Origin: Porticoccaceae bacterium
Lineage (GTDB): Bacteria > Pseudomonadota > Gammaproteobacteria > Pseudomonadales > Porticoccaceae
Assembly (NCBI GenBank): GCA_029250825.1
Contig: JAQXEN010000091.1
Coordinates: 1 to 64,000 of the forward strand
Direction: 5' to 3'
DNA: 64,000 nucleotides
The position numbers were made by a program, and so were the translations under genes. Positions 6,120 to 63,799 of this stretch are shown here, in pieces. The notes beneath the pieces are model-generated. The model made no database searches. It saw only the letters and a program-made list of their open reading frames with translations, and had not been told where the DNA came from. The first letter of the stretch is position 1. Each line of letters starts with the position of its first letter.

Positions 6120-8195
6120 TCAATAGGGGCCATTCTGGTCTTCAGGGTTGCTCCACAACGCAGACCAAACCACTGTTCCATCTATATAAAATACTGCATC
6201 ACCATCAAATACCGCTCGCTGGCGACTGTCCCAGAACTGCTGTCTTTGAGCGTTAATCTGACCCACTTCAACAATTGCAGCATCCGCTGGTCGATCTTTG
6301 CTGTCGATTTCAAATAGCATCAAACGCTGCTCGTCTCTGTAGCCGCCTTCATCAGAATAAAGCCCAAGGGAGAGCGGTATAGAAAAACGATCCGTGGTCT
6401 CATCCACTACCTGATAGGTAAAAGCATGGCGGTTATAGCGCGCCTCGGAATAACTCCAGTTAGCGCCCTCGACCAGACTGGTCGAACCCAGAGAGAAAGG
6501 CGCGGTCAAGACTGCCACATTATAGAGTTCCAACTTGACCAAACCCTGCTCATCCTGCCCCAGACCCAACAGCAGATCATCATTGACTGGATGCAAGAAG
6601 TCAGAGAAACCGGGAACACTGAGTTCACCGGCGATAAGTGGTTCTAAGGGATCACTGAGATCGAGAACGTAGAGTGGATCGATACGCTCAAAGGTCACTA
6701 GATAGAGCCTGTCTCCAAAAAAGCGTACCCCATAAAGGTCTTCATTGGGCTTGCCGATAGCAGCGGGTTGCTCGTTGTTAGGAAGAGTCGAGACTAACTC
6801 CAATTCAAGTTTATCCGCGGCTAACTTAAGTACCGAGAGCTGATGCTCTATGCGATCTTCTCCGTTATCGGTACGCTGACTGGTGACCATGCGCAGATAA
6901 CCCTCGTGCTCATTGATGCGGAAATCTTTATCGCCATTCAGTGCCAATGCACCGTCAACAACCCCAGAACCAAGATAATCGAGGTCAGTCGACAGTTCAT
7001 AGCTGTGCACTAGTGTGCGGCTGTCCATTCCAGCCTCAGCATAATCAACCTGAGTCAGATAGATCGCGTTATTGCTTACATAGATCCCGGAGGTCGGCTC
7101 AAGATAGCAGACAGCATTGGCCACCGACTGACTTTGCAGATCAATGGCGATCAACATTGTCATGGTAGGAAAGCCGTTAGTCTCGGGGGCCAAGCTATTT
7201 TCGCGATCGGTGACACGGCAATCAGAGGCGCTAAGCAGCGGACTTTTGGCTCCATTGATCATCATGTTGGGCAAAATATCTTCAGGCTCCAGACCATCGA
7301 GCAGGGTTTCATTCTCGGCGGCCTCGAGTTCATTGGGATAATACCGATATCCAACTACGTCCGGCGTGTGGCGGGCCACAAGGTAGACTATATCCCCCTG
7401 TCGGCGACTGTTTACAAAGCCCCCTTGAAACTCCAACTGCAGCAGTCGATCTGGATCGGTCACATCACTGATATCGTAGATATCCAGTGCCGTGGTCTGC
7501 CCAGCCCAAATCGATGGATCTGCAAAAGAAGTACCAAAAGAACCCCACCAGCCACTACTGCTGATAGAGACTAGCTGATTATCATTGATATACAGCCCTT
7601 CAACCGTGCGGTCCCCCTCCAGAAGAATTGCCCCAACCTGATCCGCCTTAGCGGCCTCGGGATCGGTGGCGAGAATACGGATACTGCGCTCTTCATTGGG
7701 ACCCGGGACCAGTGACATATCGCTGGCTTCAGCGCCCTCTTCCTCACTGCCCTCTTCAATACTGCCCTCGGCTAAATCCTCCTCCAGCATGACTTCTGGA
7801 AAAGCAATATCTTCGAATACAAAGCAGCAATCCATACCGCGACTCGGAGCAATAAATAGATGATTGCCGTCGTATTTTACATAGTCATGCTCATCGACAC
7901 TGGTCTCCAGAGTATAAGTGGTAGTAAAACTCTCATTGCTAGCCGGCGCTGCAGAGTCCACAGTCACCTCAATAATTTCGGTGGAAGTCCTATTGGCAAC
8001 CGAACTCTGGGTAAAGCTCTCGCGCATCGTTTCCACTAACTGATCTGCACTCTCCAACGCCACCAGCAGACCCTGAGGAGCTGGCGAGTTATCTTCAGGC
8101 TTGTCAATTTGCGGGGCAGAGGAGCCACCGCCGCCACCGCAGGACACCATGATCATTGCTATGAGAATCAACACAATCTGGGAGATATTTTTCAT
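6120..8195 (-). CDS. Secreted beta-propeller lipoprotein
   Basis: The protein of about 691 residues begins with a lipoprotein signal: a hydrophobic stretch, then the lipobox MVSC at residues 16-19 and a poly-Gly/Ser tether. The rest is rich in beta-strand repeats, with stretches such as EHDYVKYDGNHLFIAPSRG and GVRFFGDRLYLVTFERIDPL. These resemble the family of secreted proteins with a C-terminal beta-propeller distantly related to WD-40 (PF09826 type); recognition is by pattern, not by search. An acidic Glu/Ser segment lies near residues 145-165. ATG 8195 was preferred over TTG 8210 because of spacing to a GAG and the compact signal peptide. It is divergent from the octaheme cytochrome gene, with a shared 199-base promoter region. 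Its biochemical role is unknown. Confidence 0.75.
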   Translation of the reverse strand: MKNISQIVLILIAMIMVSCGGGGGSSAPQIDKPEDNSPAPQGLLVALESADQLVETMRESFTQSSVANRTSTEIIEVTVDSAAPASNESFTTTYTLETSVDEHDYVKYDGNHLFIAPSRGMDCCFVFEDIAFPEVMLEEDLAEGSIEEGSEEEGAEASDMSLVPGPNEERSIRILATDPEAAKADQVGAILLEGDRTVEGLYINDNQLVSISSSGWWGSFGTSFADPSIWAGQTTALDIYDISDVTDPDRLLQLEFQGGFVNSRRQGDIVYLVARHTPDVVGYRYYPNELEAAENETLLDGLEPEDILPNMMINGAKSPLLSASDCRVTDRENSLAPETNGFPTMTMLIAIDLQSQSVANAVCYLEPTSGIYVSNNAIYLTQVDYAEAGMDSRTLVHSYELSTDLDYLGSGVVDGALALNGDKDFRINEHEGYLRMVTSQRTDNGEDRIEHQLSVLKLAADKLELELVSTLPNNEQPAAIGKPNEDLYGVRFFGDRLYLVTFERIDPLYVLDLSDPLEPLIAGELSVPGFSDFLHPVNDDLLLGLGQDEQGLVKLELYNVAVLTAPFSLGSTSLVEGANWSYSEARYNRHAFTYQVVDETTDRFSIPLSLGLYSDEGGYRDEQRLMLFEIDSKDRPADAAIVEVGQINAQRQQFWDSRQRAVFDGDAVFYIDGTVVWSALWSNPEDQNGPY

Positions 8196-8394
8196 TATTA
8201 TTTTTCTCAATTAACCTTTGGGGCAAGTATATTCAAGTTTAACTAGCTACCTCGCAGGCTGCAAACTTATACCATAGAGAAGCCCCGCTGCCGTGGAAAA
8301 ATATTTTGCATCCTAACCCCAGAATCAAATGCTAAACTGGCGCTGCACCGGCCCTAAATTAGCTCTACAAACCCGACAAATAGATTGAACAAAA

Positions 8395-10695
8395 ATGCCC
8401 CGACCACACCGCGCCAATTTTATCTATCACCTCACGCTGATTATCACCGGGGTTTTATTGGTTGCGTTTATTGGCACTGCACTTATTAGCCCAACAGCGC
8501 CCAGTGATCCACTGATCATTACTGGTACAGAGACCAATCGCAGCGATAGCGCTTACCTAGGTAGCAACAGCTGTGCCGGATGCCACGCAGAGGCCTACCA
8601 AGATTGGCGTGACTCCCATCACGATCAGGCCATGCAGCACGCCACCGGTAAGACAGTCAAAGGGGACTTTAATAATCGCGTATTTGAAGCGCCTGGCAAC
8701 AGCGCCCTATTTTCAACAAAAGCCGATGGTTTTTACGCCCGCTTAGCCGGTATCAATGGCGAGGTCCAAGAACATAAAATTCTCTACACCTTTGGCACAG
8801 AGCCCCTGCAGCAGTATCTTGTGGCCTTTGCCGATGGCCGCCTACAGCAGCTTCCTGTGGCCTGGAACACATTGACTGAGCAATGGTTTGACCCTCAGCC
8901 AGAGTTACTCGCACAACCTGGTGAATGGGTGCACTGGTCTGAGGGAGGCAAGAACTGGAATAGCATGTGTGCCGACTGTCACAGTAACAATGTTGAGAAG
9001 AACTTTGATATTGCCAGCAACAGTTACAGCACCAGCGTCTCGGAGATCGATGTGGGCTGTGAAGCCTGTCATGGCCCCGGGCGCGATCATGTTACGGCAG
9101 TTAGTTCAGCCAACTTTGATGCAGCGCTGGATCAGCTGCATATCAGTATGAAGGTCGGAGAAAATTCTCAGGCAGTGGTGGATCAGTGCGGGCGCTGTCA
9201 TGCTCGCCGCCAGCAACTGACCAACAAGTTTGAGCATGGCAGCAGCCAATTACTAGATTACTATTTACCCCAACTGCTGACCCCTCCAACCTATCACAGC
9301 GATGGCCAAATTCTCGATGAGGTGTTTGTCTACGGCTCCTTTGTCCAGAGCAAAATGTATCACTCAGGGGTCGGCTGTGTGGACTGCCACCAGCCCCATA
9401 GCGCAAAGCTTAAAGCCGAGGGCAATAAGCTCTGTGTCGGCTGTCATAGCAGTGAGCTATTCGATACACCCAAGCACCATCAGCATAGCGTGGATCTGGC
9501 AGGGACAATGGACAGCAATCAAGCTCAGGGAACCCAGTGCATTGACTGCCATATGCCAGGGCGACCCTATATGGGCAATGACTATCGCCGCGATCATAGC
9601 TTTCGCATACCGCGACCGGATCTCAGTGTTGCCCAGGGTACCCCCAATGCCTGCAATGACTGCCACAGCAAAGAGTCCGCCAAATGGGCTGCGGAAAAGA
9701 TTGTGCATTGGTATGGCCCTGAGCGTCCGGCACACTTTTCTGAAATCCTAAGTGCCGCTGCCAGCCAGCCCAATAATGCGGTGAAGCCTCTAGTATCGCT
9801 ATTAAATGATCTATCACAGCCAGCCATTGCTCGCGCCACGGCAGCCTCTCTGCTGGCCCCAGATATCTCACTTCCGCAAGTAGAACGCGCCATCATCCAT
9901 GCAACCAATGATCAGAGCGCATTGTTGCGAACCATCTCGGTTCAGACGCTCAATGCCAGTGCCAATAAAGTTTCACCCCTACTTGAGCGTCTCAATGACC
10001 CCGTACGTGCAGTGCGTATCGCCGCCGCTGAAGGGATGGTTGATGTGCCGGAGAACCAGGTACCAGCGGCGCTAACTGATGCTTTTAGTCAGGCCAATCA
10101 AGAGTATCAAACCTCACTGATGGTTAATGCCGACTTCCCCTCCGGTCGAATGCGTATGGCGGTTGATCAGCATCGCCGGGGTAATCTGGAGCAAGCTGCT
10201 AGTGAGTATTTAGCGGCATTAAAAATCGACAGTGGTTATAACGGGGCGCGGATGAATCTGGCGCAACTCTATTACAGCCAAGGAAAGCTGAGCGATACAG
10301 AGAGACTCTATCGAGAAGTGATCGAAGGAGAACCCAAGGCCAGCGACGCTCACTATTCTCTGGGACTACTGATGGCCGAACAGGGAGACTTCGAAGAGGC
10401 CGCGCTGTCACTAGAGAACGCCGCTTCCACCGGCAATAACCCACGCGCTTGGTACAACCTTGCGGTGTTGCATCAGCAGTCGGGGAAATCAATGGACGCG
10501 GAAAAAGCCTATCTGGCAGCCCTGCAACTAGCGCCGGGAAATGCAGAGTTTATCAATGGTCTGGTAAGCCTCTACGGTCAACAGCAGCGCTGGTTTAAAG
10601 CCATGCAGCTAATTGACCGAGCATTGATTGATGATCCCAACAAGCCTAGCCTAGAGCAATTAAAGCGGGCGGTGGGGCAGCGCTTGGGTTCTTAA
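8395..10695 (+). CDS. Octaheme c-type cytochrome fused to HEAT-like and TPR repeats
   Basis: This protein has 766 residues. One N-terminal membrane segment (about 11-33) anchors it with the rest in the periplasm. Eight CXXCH heme motifs are visible: C60, C192, C222, C265, C328, C347, C382 and C420, each followed by His at +4. Residues about 440-560 look like short alpha-helical HEAT-type repeats, and about 585-760 hold several TPRs (for example NLAQLYYSQGKLSDTERLYR and YNLAVLHQQSGKSMDAEKAY). The heme part resembles the doubled-CXXCH/cytochrome c554 class. The likely role is periplasmic electron transfer within a protein complex built on the TPRs; substrate and partner are unknown. No maturation or reductase genes are adjacent. 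Confidence 0.85.
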   Translation: MPRPHRANFIYHLTLIITGVLLVAFIGTALISPTAPSDPLIITGTETNRSDSAYLGSNSCAGCHAEAYQDWRDSHHDQAMQHATGKTVKGDFNNRVFEAPGNSALFSTKADGFYARLAGINGEVQEHKILYTFGTEPLQQYLVAFADGRLQQLPVAWNTLTEQWFDPQPELLAQPGEWVHWSEGGKNWNSMCADCHSNNVEKNFDIASNSYSTSVSEIDVGCEACHGPGRDHVTAVSSANFDAALDQLHISMKVGENSQAVVDQCGRCHARRQQLTNKFEHGSSQLLDYYLPQLLTPPTYHSDGQILDEVFVYGSFVQSKMYHSGVGCVDCHQPHSAKLKAEGNKLCVGCHSSELFDTPKHHQHSVDLAGTMDSNQAQGTQCIDCHMPGRPYMGNDYRRDHSFRIPRPDLSVAQGTPNACNDCHSKESAKWAAEKIVHWYGPERPAHFSEILSAAASQPNNAVKPLVSLLNDLSQPAIARATAASLLAPDISLPQVERAIIHATNDQSALLRTISVQTLNASANKVSPLLERLNDPVRAVRIAAAEGMVDVPENQVPAALTDAFSQANQEYQTSLMVNADFPSGRMRMAVDQHRRGNLEQAASEYLAALKIDSGYNGARMNLAQLYYSQGKLSDTERLYREVIEGEPKASDAHYSLGLLMAEQGDFEEAALSLENAASTGNNPRAWYNLAVLHQQSGKSMDAEKAYLAALQLAPGNAEFINGLVSLYGQQQRWFKAMQLIDRALIDDPNKPSLEQLKRAVGQRLGS

Positions 10696-10765: not shown

Positions 10766-12427
10766 CTATCGAAGTACTGCTCTGGCTTTCTCCAAGAGAT
10801 TACCCGCATGATTCATCACATGGAAAACAATGCTCTGCTCATTGCTCCCGGTAACCAGATGGGCACCGGGACCAATAGCATAAATTGCCACATCCTCACC
10901 GCCGTGGGTTTCAGACTCTCTTGGCACCAAGACCTCCTGGTGAAAACCCTCCGCCTCGGTGTCCACGGCGGTCAAATCCTGACGCCCGCCCAGGGACTTG
11001 CTGTAATAGGCCATATCGGCATTGGTTTCATCACCCAGATCGCGAAACCCGAGACCATTGATATAGCCCAGGGTCGTATAGGGCAGCCCGTCATCACCTA
11101 GAATCGGCGTCTCCGAACCCACCTCAACAACTTTTCCCAAAATCGGATTGCCGCGCTTGGGATAACCGGCCATGGTAAATACGTGACTATGATCCGCAGT
11201 AACAATAATCAGTGTATCCTCGCGACTGGTTGCATCCAGCGCAGCCTGGACTGCAAGAGACAGCTCCACCGTATCACTCAAGGCGGCAAAGGCACTGTTA
11301 GCGTGATGACCGTGGTCGATACGCCCAGCTTCCACCATCAGGAAAAACCCTCGATCATTATTATCGAGAATATCGATGGCCTTCGCGGTCATCTCGGTTA
11401 GGGATGGCTCTCCAGCGATATCGTTTTTGCGATCCGCCGCGTAGAGCATCTCCGACTCATTAAACAGTCCGAATAGCTGCTGATTGCTGGCACTATCCAC
11501 GGCGTCAAAACCGGCCTGATCAAACACATAGTCGCCATCGGGATAGAGTGCCTTCCACTCGTCCACAAGATTGCGCTTATCGTTGCGATCACCCTCTACC
11601 GGGCTGCGGGCATCTGGGCTGTTAGCAGCCGCATCCTTGGGCAGAAATTCTCGCCGTCCGCCACCCATTGCAACCTCGATACCATTGCTATCGACACCGG
11701 GATAGCGAGCCTCGAGATTGCGCTCAAAATTAATTAATTGCGAGGCTATATCCTCACAGCCTGCGGCAAGGGCCGCCGCTGGCATCATCGATGGGTTTTC
11801 CCAATCACGATCGGCTGATTTAGCATAGGTGGCCGCCGGCGTAGCATGAGTAATGCGTGCAGTGGAAACAATGCCAGTAGACAGCCCGGCGAGCTCGGCC
11901 AGCTCCAGCGCAGTAAATACCTGATTGCCAGCAGCAGATTCACAGTCCCCTTTAAGGGTATCTTCATCGAGGCCAATAACCCCAATATTGGTTTTAACAC
12001 CGCTTATAAGTGCAGTCATGGTGCCTGCAGAATCTGCTGTTTGAGCATCGACATTATAGGTTTTTGACAGGCCAACAAAGGGGAAGCGGCCAAAGCTTAG
12101 GCTGTTCTCTTCACCGGACATGCCCTGCTGCTGACCATCAAAAATACGCGCTGCAGTGACTGTGGTCACCCCCATACCATCGCCGACAAAGAGAATAATG
12201 TTTTTCGCCGAGCCGGCCTCTAATGCTAGGCGCTGAACCTGATTATTGGTCTCAGCCACCGCTGCCGCAGACTCTCTGTACCACTGATTATCAAGGGTAC
12301 CGAGAAGTGCTTTGTGGGTTGCGGCTTTTGGCGCCTCAGGTGGCGTGCAGCCAACCAGTAGCAGCGCAATCAGACCCGCGATAGACTGGTTAAATCGATG
12401 AAGGTGCAATGATTTCGAGCTCTGCAT
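10766..12427 (-). CDS. phoA: Alkaline phosphatase, lipoprotein form
   Basis: This is a PhoA-superfamily phosphomonoesterase that releases phosphate from organic esters outside the inner membrane. Counting from ATG 12427 (553 residues), a lipobox LLVGC puts the lipidated Cys at 27. The first metal-site Asp is D83 in FVGDGMG, and the nucleophile is S133 in TADSAGTMTAL. Further metal ligands lie in EAGRIDHGHH, TADHSH and ETHGGED. ATG 12427 has AGGA eight bases upstream; an upstream in-frame ATG at 12457 has no such site. Many PhoA proteins are soluble, so the lipid anchor is a difference worth noting. No Pho box was identified. Confidence 0.93.
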   Translation of the reverse strand: MQSSKSLHLHRFNQSIAGLIALLLVGCTPPEAPKAATHKALLGTLDNQWYRESAAAVAETNNQVQRLALEAGSAKNIILFVGDGMGVTTVTAARIFDGQQQGMSGEENSLSFGRFPFVGLSKTYNVDAQTADSAGTMTALISGVKTNIGVIGLDEDTLKGDCESAAGNQVFTALELAELAGLSTGIVSTARITHATPAATYAKSADRDWENPSMMPAAALAAGCEDIASQLINFERNLEARYPGVDSNGIEVAMGGGRREFLPKDAAANSPDARSPVEGDRNDKRNLVDEWKALYPDGDYVFDQAGFDAVDSASNQQLFGLFNESEMLYAADRKNDIAGEPSLTEMTAKAIDILDNNDRGFFLMVEAGRIDHGHHANSAFAALSDTVELSLAVQAALDATSREDTLIIVTADHSHVFTMAGYPKRGNPILGKVVEVGSETPILGDDGLPYTTLGYINGLGFRDLGDETNADMAYYSKSLGGRQDLTAVDTEAEGFHQEVLVPRESETHGGEDVAIYAIGPGAHLVTGSNEQSIVFHVMNHAGNLLEKARAVLR

Positions 12428-12515
12428 ACTGTTAATCCTGTCACGGGAAGTAGTCAAAAACCAAAGTCTTTGTTACGACAGCATTGTGACACTATGTGGG
12501 ACGGAGACGCGAGAT

Positions 12516-62755: not shown

Positions 62756-63799
62756 TTACTTTTTAGCGGCTGGGGCTTTCTTAGCTGCGACTTTCTTAGC
62801 AGCTGGTTTCTTCGCTACAGCCTTCTTTGCAACTGGCTTCTTAGCCGCTACTGCTTTTTTCGCCACTGCTTTTTTGGCAGCTGGCTTCTTGGCAGCAACT
62901 TTCTTAGCCGCTACTTTTTTAGCCGCTGGCTTCTTAGCAACTGCTTTCTTAGCTGCTACTTTTTTAGCCGCTGGCTTCTTAGCTACTGCTTTCTTAGCTG
63001 CTGGCTTCTTGGCAGCAACTTTCTTAGCTGCTACTTTTTTAGCCGCTGACTTCTTGGCTACTGCTTTCTTAGCTGCTGGCTTCTTGGCAGCAACTTTCTT
63101 AGCGGCTGCTTTCTTAGCTACTGGCTTCTTAGCTACTGCTTTCTTAGCTGCTGGCTTCTTAGCAACAACCTTCTTAGCCGCTGGCTTTTTCGCTACAGGC
63201 TTAGCAGCAACCGCTTTTTTAGCTGCAGGCTTTTTTCCGGCGGCTTTTTTCGCTGCAGCTTTAAGCTTTGCAACTACCGCTTTTTCAGCTGCCTGAACTT
63301 TAAGGGCTGCTTTCTTTTCGGCGGCTTTCATTTTCTTCGAGGTCGCTTTAGCGCGAGCCTTTAACCAGCGCTTTTCAAATCGCTTCATTGCGGCGGCCAG
63401 ATCAGCATCCTGAGCAGCCTGCAAACGCGCTTCGGTTTTCAAGATAGCAGCCTTGGCAGCAGCTTCAGCAGTTGCAACTTTTTGCTTCAACTGAATATCT
63501 TTTAGCTCAGTCTTAGCATTGCGCAAACCGTCGCGCAATGCAGCGGCAATTTTACGGCTAGCAGAAGCCTGTTTACGAGCTGTAGCCAAACTGGCTTTAG
63601 CAGCAGCAGTTGCTTTTACGGCAATTTTTGCTTTAGCTTTGTTTACTTTAGCAACAACAGCATCATGTTTTTTGTTATGAGCTACCATTTGCTTTTTAAC
63701 TGAATCAACAAGCTTCGCTGCACTTTGAACAGGTGAAGTCTGTGGCTTTGCTTTTGCTTTAGATACTTTAGATACTTTTTTCTTGGCTGGGCGATTCAT
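62756..63799 (-). CDS. Histone H1-like Lys/Ala-rich protein (AlgP-like)
   Basis: This 347-residue, extremely basic protein has an N-terminal half that looks like a long helical or coiled-coil segment ([20 protein letters not shown]). The C-terminal half, about 185-347, is almost entirely repeats of KKPAAKK, KKVAAKK and KKAVAKK. This composition is seen in AlgP (AlgR3) of Pseudomonas and in PhaF-type and H1-like proteins that bind DNA non-specifically. The likely role is nucleoid binding or gene regulation; the exact job is unknown. AGGAACG lies nine bases before ATG 63799. Repeat number is likely to vary between strains. Confidence 0.85.

Follow-up and report, generated by a model that had tools for sequence, protein, structure and literature searches.

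The window, a stretch of 64,000 nucleotides analyzed here as a whole, carries an ATG-initiated open frame for a 766-residue protein, called the octaheme protein below (Table 1), whose gene is present in a single copy in the genome. A preliminary description drawn from the sequence alone had claimed eight CXXCH motifs, a membrane segment, a HEAT-like and TPR tail, and a resemblance to doubled-CXXCH cytochromes, and all of these can be located. The CxxCH motifs fall at residues 60, 192, 222, 265, 328, 347, 382, and 420, and no cysteine of the 766 residues lies outside them. A predicted model has an N-terminal helix at residues 7 to 30, which may be an anchor or a signal. Pfam recognizes TPR families clearly (best E value of 1e-15), as well as Cytochrome_C554 (7e-9) and Paired_CXXCH_1 (1e-8); HEAT_2 is weak (23.1 bits versus a cutoff of 27.7), with helical repeats beginning at about residue 448 in the model. 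The divergent gene, 184 bp away, encodes a beta-propeller lipoprotein, as evidenced by its PF09826 match (E value of 7e-85) and a lipobox-like MVSC, and a Pfam scan of five neighbors found no reductase or quinol oxidase family, both as described earlier. The overall picture of an uncharacterized, probably periplasmic multiheme redox protein with a protein interaction tail is supported.

Table 1. Positions of the octaheme gene, its predicted features, and its two neighbors in the window
Feature	Positions	Strand	Basis
Octaheme-HEAT-TPR protein, 766 aa	8395..10695	+	Open frame, Pfam
Predicted N-terminal membrane helix or signal, residues 7-30	8413..8484	+	Structure model
Heme 1 site CAGCH	8572..8586	+	Motif
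Beta-domain between hemes 1 and 2, residues 95-165, PLQQYL motif	8677..8889	+	Model and alignment
Heme 2 site CADCH, proposed open (substrate) heme	8968..8982	+	Motif; openness suggested by analogy with OcwA and MccA
Heme 3 site CEACH	9058..9072	+	Motif
Heme 4 site CGRCH	9187..9201	+	Motif
Heme 5 site CVDCH, aligned to OcwA heme 6	9376..9390	+	Motif and alignment
Heme 6 site CVGCH, aligned to OcwA heme 7	9433..9447	+	Motif and alignment
Heme 7 site CIDCH, aligned to OcwA heme 8	9538..9552	+	Motif and alignment
Heme 8 site CNDCH, aligned to OcwA heme 9	9652..9666	+	Motif and alignment
HEAT-like helical repeats, residues 448-547	9736..10035	+	Model; Pfam HEAT_2 below cutoff
TPR repeats, residues 558-766	10066..10692	+	Pfam and model
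Divergent beta-propeller lipoprotein (PF09826)	6120..8210	-	Pfam
Convergent alkaline phosphatase (PF00245)	10766..12457	-	Pfam

The full-length structure model is of moderate quality (pLDDT of 73.7, from 19 sequences). Because the 50 matches shown for the full-length fold search are TPR proteins, the heme domain was modeled alone, with 93 sequences, which gave a pLDDT of 90.2 and a pTM of 0.88. The best fold match of this model is OcwA from Thermincola potens (PDB 6i5b; Z of 21.9, rmsd of 3.1 over 326 residues), followed by 6qvm (Z of 14.2), the octaheme sulfite reductase MccA (PDB 4rkm and 4rkn; Z of 9.7), and NrfA (Z of at most 6.6). An NrfA-type nitrite reductase, a pentaheme protein with CXXCK (in some cases CXXCH) at its active-site heme, was considered and rejected, given eight CxxCH motifs, a size unlike that of NrfA, and the low Z score. 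By its predicted fold, the heme part is OcwA/MccA-like, which is a sharper label than doubled CXXCH.

The likeness to OcwA comprises the predicted fold of the heme domain, the beta-domain between hemes 1 and 2, and the motif order, with motifs 5 to 8 aligning in sequence with OcwA hemes 6 to 9. Nevertheless, OcwA has nine hemes rather than eight, the motif of its second open heme (heme 5) is missing here, and the accessible text of PMC6703420 describes no TPR tail for OcwA, whereas the octaheme protein has its HEAT/TPR tail. According to the same text, OcwA and MccA share the beta-domain, OcwA hemes 1 to 4 and 6 to 9 align with the eight of the MccA core, and heme 2 is the active site in that core. 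MccA resembles the octaheme protein in its eight hemes and beta-domain but is the weaker fold match, and the octaheme protein differs in its HEAT/TPR tail and its want of a cysteine-copper site.

Conservation is higher in the heme part of the family than in the tail. Eight heme sites are present in all 95 members of alignment A2, which omits L034 (identical to L049), L081, L095, L110, L119, and L120, and of which alignment A3 holds 93. The last site is CX3-4CH in 10 members: CX4CH in L065, L070, L076, L086, L087, L104, L116, L121, and L127 and CX3CH in L092. Nonmotif histidines H76, H232, H335, H361, H364, and H401 are kept in 94 to 95 of the 95 members, and Met321 and Met393 in all 95. This ligand count fits a putative set of six bis-His hemes, one His/Met heme, and one open heme, heme 2, which by analogy with OcwA and MccA would be the substrate site. 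MccA has a cysteine-bound copper at its active site. A2 shows no conserved cysteine column beyond the heme motifs, any such cysteine being shared by at most 31 of the 95 members, and therefore an MccA-type cysteine-copper site is absent.

Octaheme homologs turn up in 24 of 56 genomes, a count that includes the genome of the window, and each has eight CxxCH motifs, which speaks against a chance pattern. The preliminary description had proposed that the octaheme protein and the divergent beta-propeller form an electron conduit in a surface or periplasmic complex, and had named conserved adjacency as a check. The divergent arrangement is indeed repeated in G002, G023, and G032, and OcwA is a surface electron-transfer protein (accessible text of PMC6703420). 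The adjacency itself is not conserved: the propeller adjoins the octaheme gene in only 4 of the 24 octaheme-positive genomes (G000, G002, G023, and G032), all from the closest subgroup. Among 35 genomes of the window's genus, the octaheme gene is present in 15 and the propeller in 18, and they occur together in 6, versus 7.7 expected if they were independent; the propeller is absent from the locus read in G001, and the two genes are on different contigs in G034. A complex of the two proteins is consequently a highly improbable reading.

The genus has two octaheme subgroups. In that of the window, which comprises seven genomes, the convergent alkaline phosphatase follows the octaheme gene in all seven and the divergent propeller precedes it in four. 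The phosphatase was considered as a specific partner and set aside; PF00245 is present in 34 of the 35 genomes, so its presence says little and is probably plain synteny. In the second subgroup, a glutamine-synthetase-family gene precedes the octaheme gene in all seven loci read, and a TauD-family gene follows it in five, a contig end cutting one of the remaining two. FAD-oxidoreductase-like and TetR-like genes also belong to this second block (L035, L037, L038, L039, L041, L043, and L044).

Beyond the genus, a scan of named genomes confirmed at least 379 relatives, of which the best 80 were kept for locus analysis. Sources among these 80 include Bacteroidota, Desulfobacteraceae, Ignavibacteria, Caldithrix, Planctomycetota, Methylococcaceae, Pseudomonas, Thiocystis, Myxococcota, Aminicenantes, and others. 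The octaheme gene is also present in 30 of 299 genomes sampled from the phylum and is matched in 146 plasmid records, 124 of them from Rhizobium or Sinorhizobium. Long N-terminal parts in some homologs (491 residues in L095) appear to be untrimmed frames and were rejected as fusions. The plasmid records seen use only the names "tetratricopeptide repeat protein," "cytochrome c3 family protein," and "multiheme c-type cytochrome," and no described function for the family appears among the matches listed from the literature searched, which mostly excludes subscription papers. Octaheme-HEAT-TPR proteins are a widespread, large, OcwA-like family that is apparently unstudied.

Two kinds of neighbor recur in the 80 loci, which are the best 80 of at least 379 relatives and some of which are cut by contig ends: within 3 kb, a Rieske gene is found in 23, a cytochrome b gene in 20, and a sulfatase gene in 16. 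Neither Rieske nor cytochrome b lies within 3 kb in the other 53 loci surveyed, that of the window included. A subunit of a Rieske/cytochrome b complex was accordingly rejected as a description of the octaheme protein, because the genes adjoin in 20 of the 80 loci and not at the window or the 52 others. In a quick, midpoint-rooted tree, the Rieske-linked octaheme proteins form mostly one clade, with L109, L111, and L117 apart. The Aureibacter locus has, one after another on a single strand, two sulfatase-family frames and the genes for cytochrome b, Rieske, and the octaheme protein. By eye, a MoxR/DUF58/von Willebrand A/BatD-like set adjoins the octaheme gene in L036, L048, L070, L079, and L179, with DUF58 in L036 confirmed by Pfam.

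A Rieske protein normally donates electrons to its partner cytochrome, and by this argument a reductase fits better than an oxidase. One such reductase, which we regard as possible though doubtful, would be periplasmic and fed by quinol, would reduce a small molecule (nitrite, hydroxylamine, peroxide, or similar) at heme 2, and would serve detoxification or minor respiration, with the sulfatase link reflecting shared regulation or ecology. This would agree with the Rieske/cytochrome b genes in 20 to 23 of the best 80 of at least 379 relatives and with OcwA, the closest solved fold, which reduces nitrite and hydroxylamine (accessible text of PMC6703420); however, the recurrent neighbor families include none pointing to nitrogen oxides.

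The octaheme protein could instead reduce oxyanions of sulfur or selenium (sulfite, selenite, or tellurite). Sulfur metabolism would then account for the tie to sulfatases, and quinol electrons would arrive by way of Rieske/cytochrome b, a route already proposed for the Geobacter ext cluster. That cluster (ExtKL, ExtM, ExtN, the Rieske protein ExtO, and the cytochrome b ExtP) resembles the present loci in placing a Rieske/cytochrome b pair beside multiheme cytochromes and is linked to the reduction of selenite and tellurite, but its cytochromes have 5, 10, and 12 hemes (accessible text of PMC5877670). Caldithrix (PMC5317091) and anammox bacteria (PMC12954380) also have known clusters that combine Rieske/cytochrome b with multiheme cytochromes, as far as the accessible parts of these papers go. 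In a Caldithrix-like locus, Rieske and cytochrome b were confirmed by Pfam, and the cytochrome b comes near ExtP (255.6 bits, below the cutoff of 290); the octaheme protein itself reaches 21.5 bits with the NCBIfam ExtKL model, versus a cutoff of 250. Although MccA, an octaheme sulfite reductase, is the third-best fold, the MccA-type copper site is missing, as no cysteine outside the heme motifs is conserved, sulfatases yield sulfate rather than sulfite, and OcwA does not reduce sulfite (accessible text of PMC6703420). We therefore judge an oxyanion reductase improbable.

Of 40 octaheme genes surveyed across 36 genomes, 22 have a sulfatase no farther than 3 kb away, versus 0.42 expected from per-genome PF00884 counts, and such proximity is seen in 14 of 24 genera. 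These genomes were picked for having the octaheme gene, and one comes from the window's genus; the set omits G035 and G046, where contigs end, and 14 octaheme-positive genomes of that genus. For the latter, 13 loci were read and have no sulfatase nearby, G012 being outside that reading. The Pfam counts are independent, and the nearby sulfatases were found with a profile built from the same loci. The active site reads SCTAGR in all 31 sulfatases that score at least 550 bits with a home-made profile.

A profile of this TAGR subfamily (A4) was made from 24 octaheme-adjacent sulfatases, some of them within the 299-genome sample. It detects the subfamily in 40 of the 299 genomes, including 23 of the 30 octaheme-positive ones (Fisher P = 8e-18, partly circular), and by genus 14 are shared, of 18 and 25 (P = 4e-11, partly circular). 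The circularity arises because A4 derives from octaheme neighbors, and it affects the 3-kb test less. The other 7 of the 30 octaheme-positive genomes, that of the window included, have no TAGR sulfatase, a point in favor of the small-molecule reductase.

Plasmids extend the association. On those of Sinorhizobium and Rhizobium, an arylsulfatase, a HAD hydrolase, and the octaheme gene occur in this order with regulators divergent (one plasmid has one extra gene). The sulfatases there have CTPGR and score 323 to 329 bits with the TAGR profile and are therefore relatives of the subfamily. The octaheme gene also lies beside a sulfatase gene on a Bacteroidota plasmid. A HAD-family hydrolase with a signal-like N terminus recurs near the sulfatase and octaheme genes in L055, L090, L122, L128, L184, and L197 to L199. 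In the accessible text of PMC2912261, the arylsulfatase SMa1683 of Sinorhizobium meliloti stands at -5.0 in a tolC-mutant table, and we do not equate it with the octaheme-linked gene; that of PMC4941405 names a different arylsulfatase, and no argument here rests on either.

FGE and anSME share with the octaheme protein a genomic place beside sulfatases; they have no sequence or fold relation to it, an exported c-type heme protein. Among the new findings, the most informative is that the octaheme gene and FGE alternate beside Cys-type sulfatases. Each of the 40 TAGR-sulfatase genomes has an octaheme, FGE, or anSME-like gene. FGE, recognized by the C-x4-C pair that we take to be its signature or by a PF03781 E value of 1.3e-80 or better, is present in 13 of the 17 octaheme-negative genomes versus 4 of the 23 octaheme-positive ones (P = 3e-4 by genome and 0.02 by genus), counts that are inflated by shared ancestry. 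Of the 13, 6 showed the pair on reading (by eye for G258) and 7 were accepted by score; in 12 of them, a strong PF03781 gene adjoins at least one TAGR sulfatase. The remaining four octaheme-negative genomes (G225, G264, G344, and G324) have a Ser-type enzyme (STAGR) adjoining an anSME-like gene that is 36 to 49% identical to that of G215.

Weak PF03781 matches were not counted as FGE because, among the matches read, the C-x4-C pair was seen only in strong ones. The octaheme-positive genomes with a C-x4-C PF03781 protein are G121, G160, G164, and G319, and the weaker matches read have no pair; matches were read in part in G116, G211, G215, G217, and G334 and left unread in G120, G254, G260, G330, and G350 (best E values of 2e-41 to 3e-48). 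AnSME exceeds the cutoff in 6 of the 23, all of one genus. Neither FGE nor anSME does so in 13 of the 23, among them G112, G116, and G191, which have an anSME match below the cutoff (111 to 112 of 349 bits).

The same alternation appears gene by gene. Of 84 TAGR genes, 17 have the octaheme gene as a partner within 6 kb, 17 have FGE, 7 have anSME, and 43 have none of these. All 17 octaheme-partnered genes, found in 13 genomes, are Cys-type, and none is also beside FGE; the FGE-partnered genes comprise 15 of Cys type and 2 with the motif unread, and the anSME-partnered genes comprise 5 of Ser type and 2 of Cys type. No gene has two kinds of partner, and the chance of zero octaheme/FGE overlap would be 0.009 under independence. 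Genes repeating residues 60 to 200 of an earlier one were dropped from this census, one gene comes from G043, outside the 299-genome sample, and some flanks are shorter than 6 kb on a side (e.g., L201, L210, L228 to L233, L242, and L243). The Ser-type genes L205, L206, L207, L208, and L289 all lie beside an anSME-like gene (5 of 5, versus 2 of 77 Cys-type genes). AslA of Escherichia coli K-12, whose gene neighbors aslB, an anSME gene, is likewise Ser-type, though more distant (281 bits).

The octaheme protein may activate sulfatases, or it may serve some other need of FGE-less bacteria. In the latter case, it would be a service protein of bacteria that lack FGE (e.g., in low-oxygen lifestyles) with no part in activation, and the alternation would be inherited by shared ancestry. 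The weakening of the FGE contrast to P = 0.02 by genus points this way, as does the makeup of the sample, in which FGE-less octaheme genomes are mostly Gammaproteobacteria-class relatives and FGE-positive ones lie mostly outside. We nevertheless consider such a service role rather unlikely, since the sulfatase gene itself repeatedly has the octaheme gene beside it (17 genes in 13 genomes), an adjacency that also occurs on Rhizobium and Sinorhizobium plasmids and on a Bacteroidota plasmid. The small-molecule reductase, in turn, leaves the rarity of FGE in octaheme-positive genomes unexplained.

We tentatively favor, though as no likelier than the small-molecule reductase, an octaheme oxidoreductase that belongs to the OcwA/MccA branch, resides in the periplasm, is probably anchored in the membrane, is quinone linked, and activates Cys-type sulfatases in many lineages. 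Open heme 2 would be its substrate site, with six hemes bis-His and one His/Met; electrons would be exchanged with the quinone pool via the adjacent Rieske/cytochrome b pair, or otherwise via general c-type carriers; and the HEAT/TPR tail would dock a client protein. In many lineages, the client would be a Cys-type sulfatase, and the octaheme protein would replace FGE in oxidatively activating the active-site cysteine. In its most specific form, this would be a third, cytochrome-based, periplasmic sulfatase-activating system in which the HEAT/TPR tail binds the exported sulfatase, the open heme oxidizes the active-site cysteine to formylglycine, and the heme chain passes electrons to the respiratory chain, with no need of oxygen. 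That specific form we consider rather unlikely.

Several observations count against sulfatase activation. In the known cases, the site of action of FGE and anSME is the cytosol, whereas the octaheme protein is exported. The usual direction of electron flow from a Rieske partner, noted above, suits a reductase better. FGE is also present in four octaheme-positive genomes, no partner lies within 6 kb of 43 of the 84 TAGR genes, the window's genus has no TAGR subfamily, G112, G116, and G191 have the below-cutoff anSME matches, and the FGE contrast is P = 0.02 by genus. Among known systems, the c-type cytochrome MauG is comparable in that it builds a protein-derived cofactor within an enzyme of the periplasm; it has two hemes and a fold other than that of the octaheme protein, and it uses peroxide or oxygen.

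For the window's organism, a sulfatase role is an extrapolation from the family. The association with Cys-type sulfatases, present for the family, is absent for this genus: no sulfatase lies near the octaheme gene in the 14 loci read, and the TAGR subfamily is found in 0 of 35 genomes (best score of 292 bits). The window's genome, which is 91% complete, has seven PF00884 matches, and the three read are Cys-type (CTPSR, CAPSR, and CAPSR). It has no anSME match at an E value of 1e-20, and its one PF03781 match lacks the C-x4-C pair. Cys-type sulfatases with neither anSME nor a paired FGE would fit an octaheme route, although octaheme-negative relatives also have such sulfatases (14 Cys-type genes in ten genomes of the genus, the stretches read there containing neither FGE nor anSME), which is a further reason to call the role extrapolated. 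By that extrapolation, the client here would be either a different Cys-type sulfatase or a protein of another kind.

If the octaheme protein does activate sulfatases, it would explain how Cys-type sulfatases function in the 13 of 23 octaheme genomes without a recognized FGE or anSME, and it would join the rare cytochromes that build a protein-derived cofactor. Otherwise, the family still constitutes a large clade of OcwA-like proteins whose genetic context (Rieske/cytochrome b and sulfatase) is clear and is tractable in model rhizobia. An arylsulfatase cluster of Vibrio vulnificus is also listed in the literature searched. Elsewhere in the window, positions 62756 to 63799 hold a long, repetitive, Lys/Ala-rich frame that resembles histone H1-like bacterial proteins.
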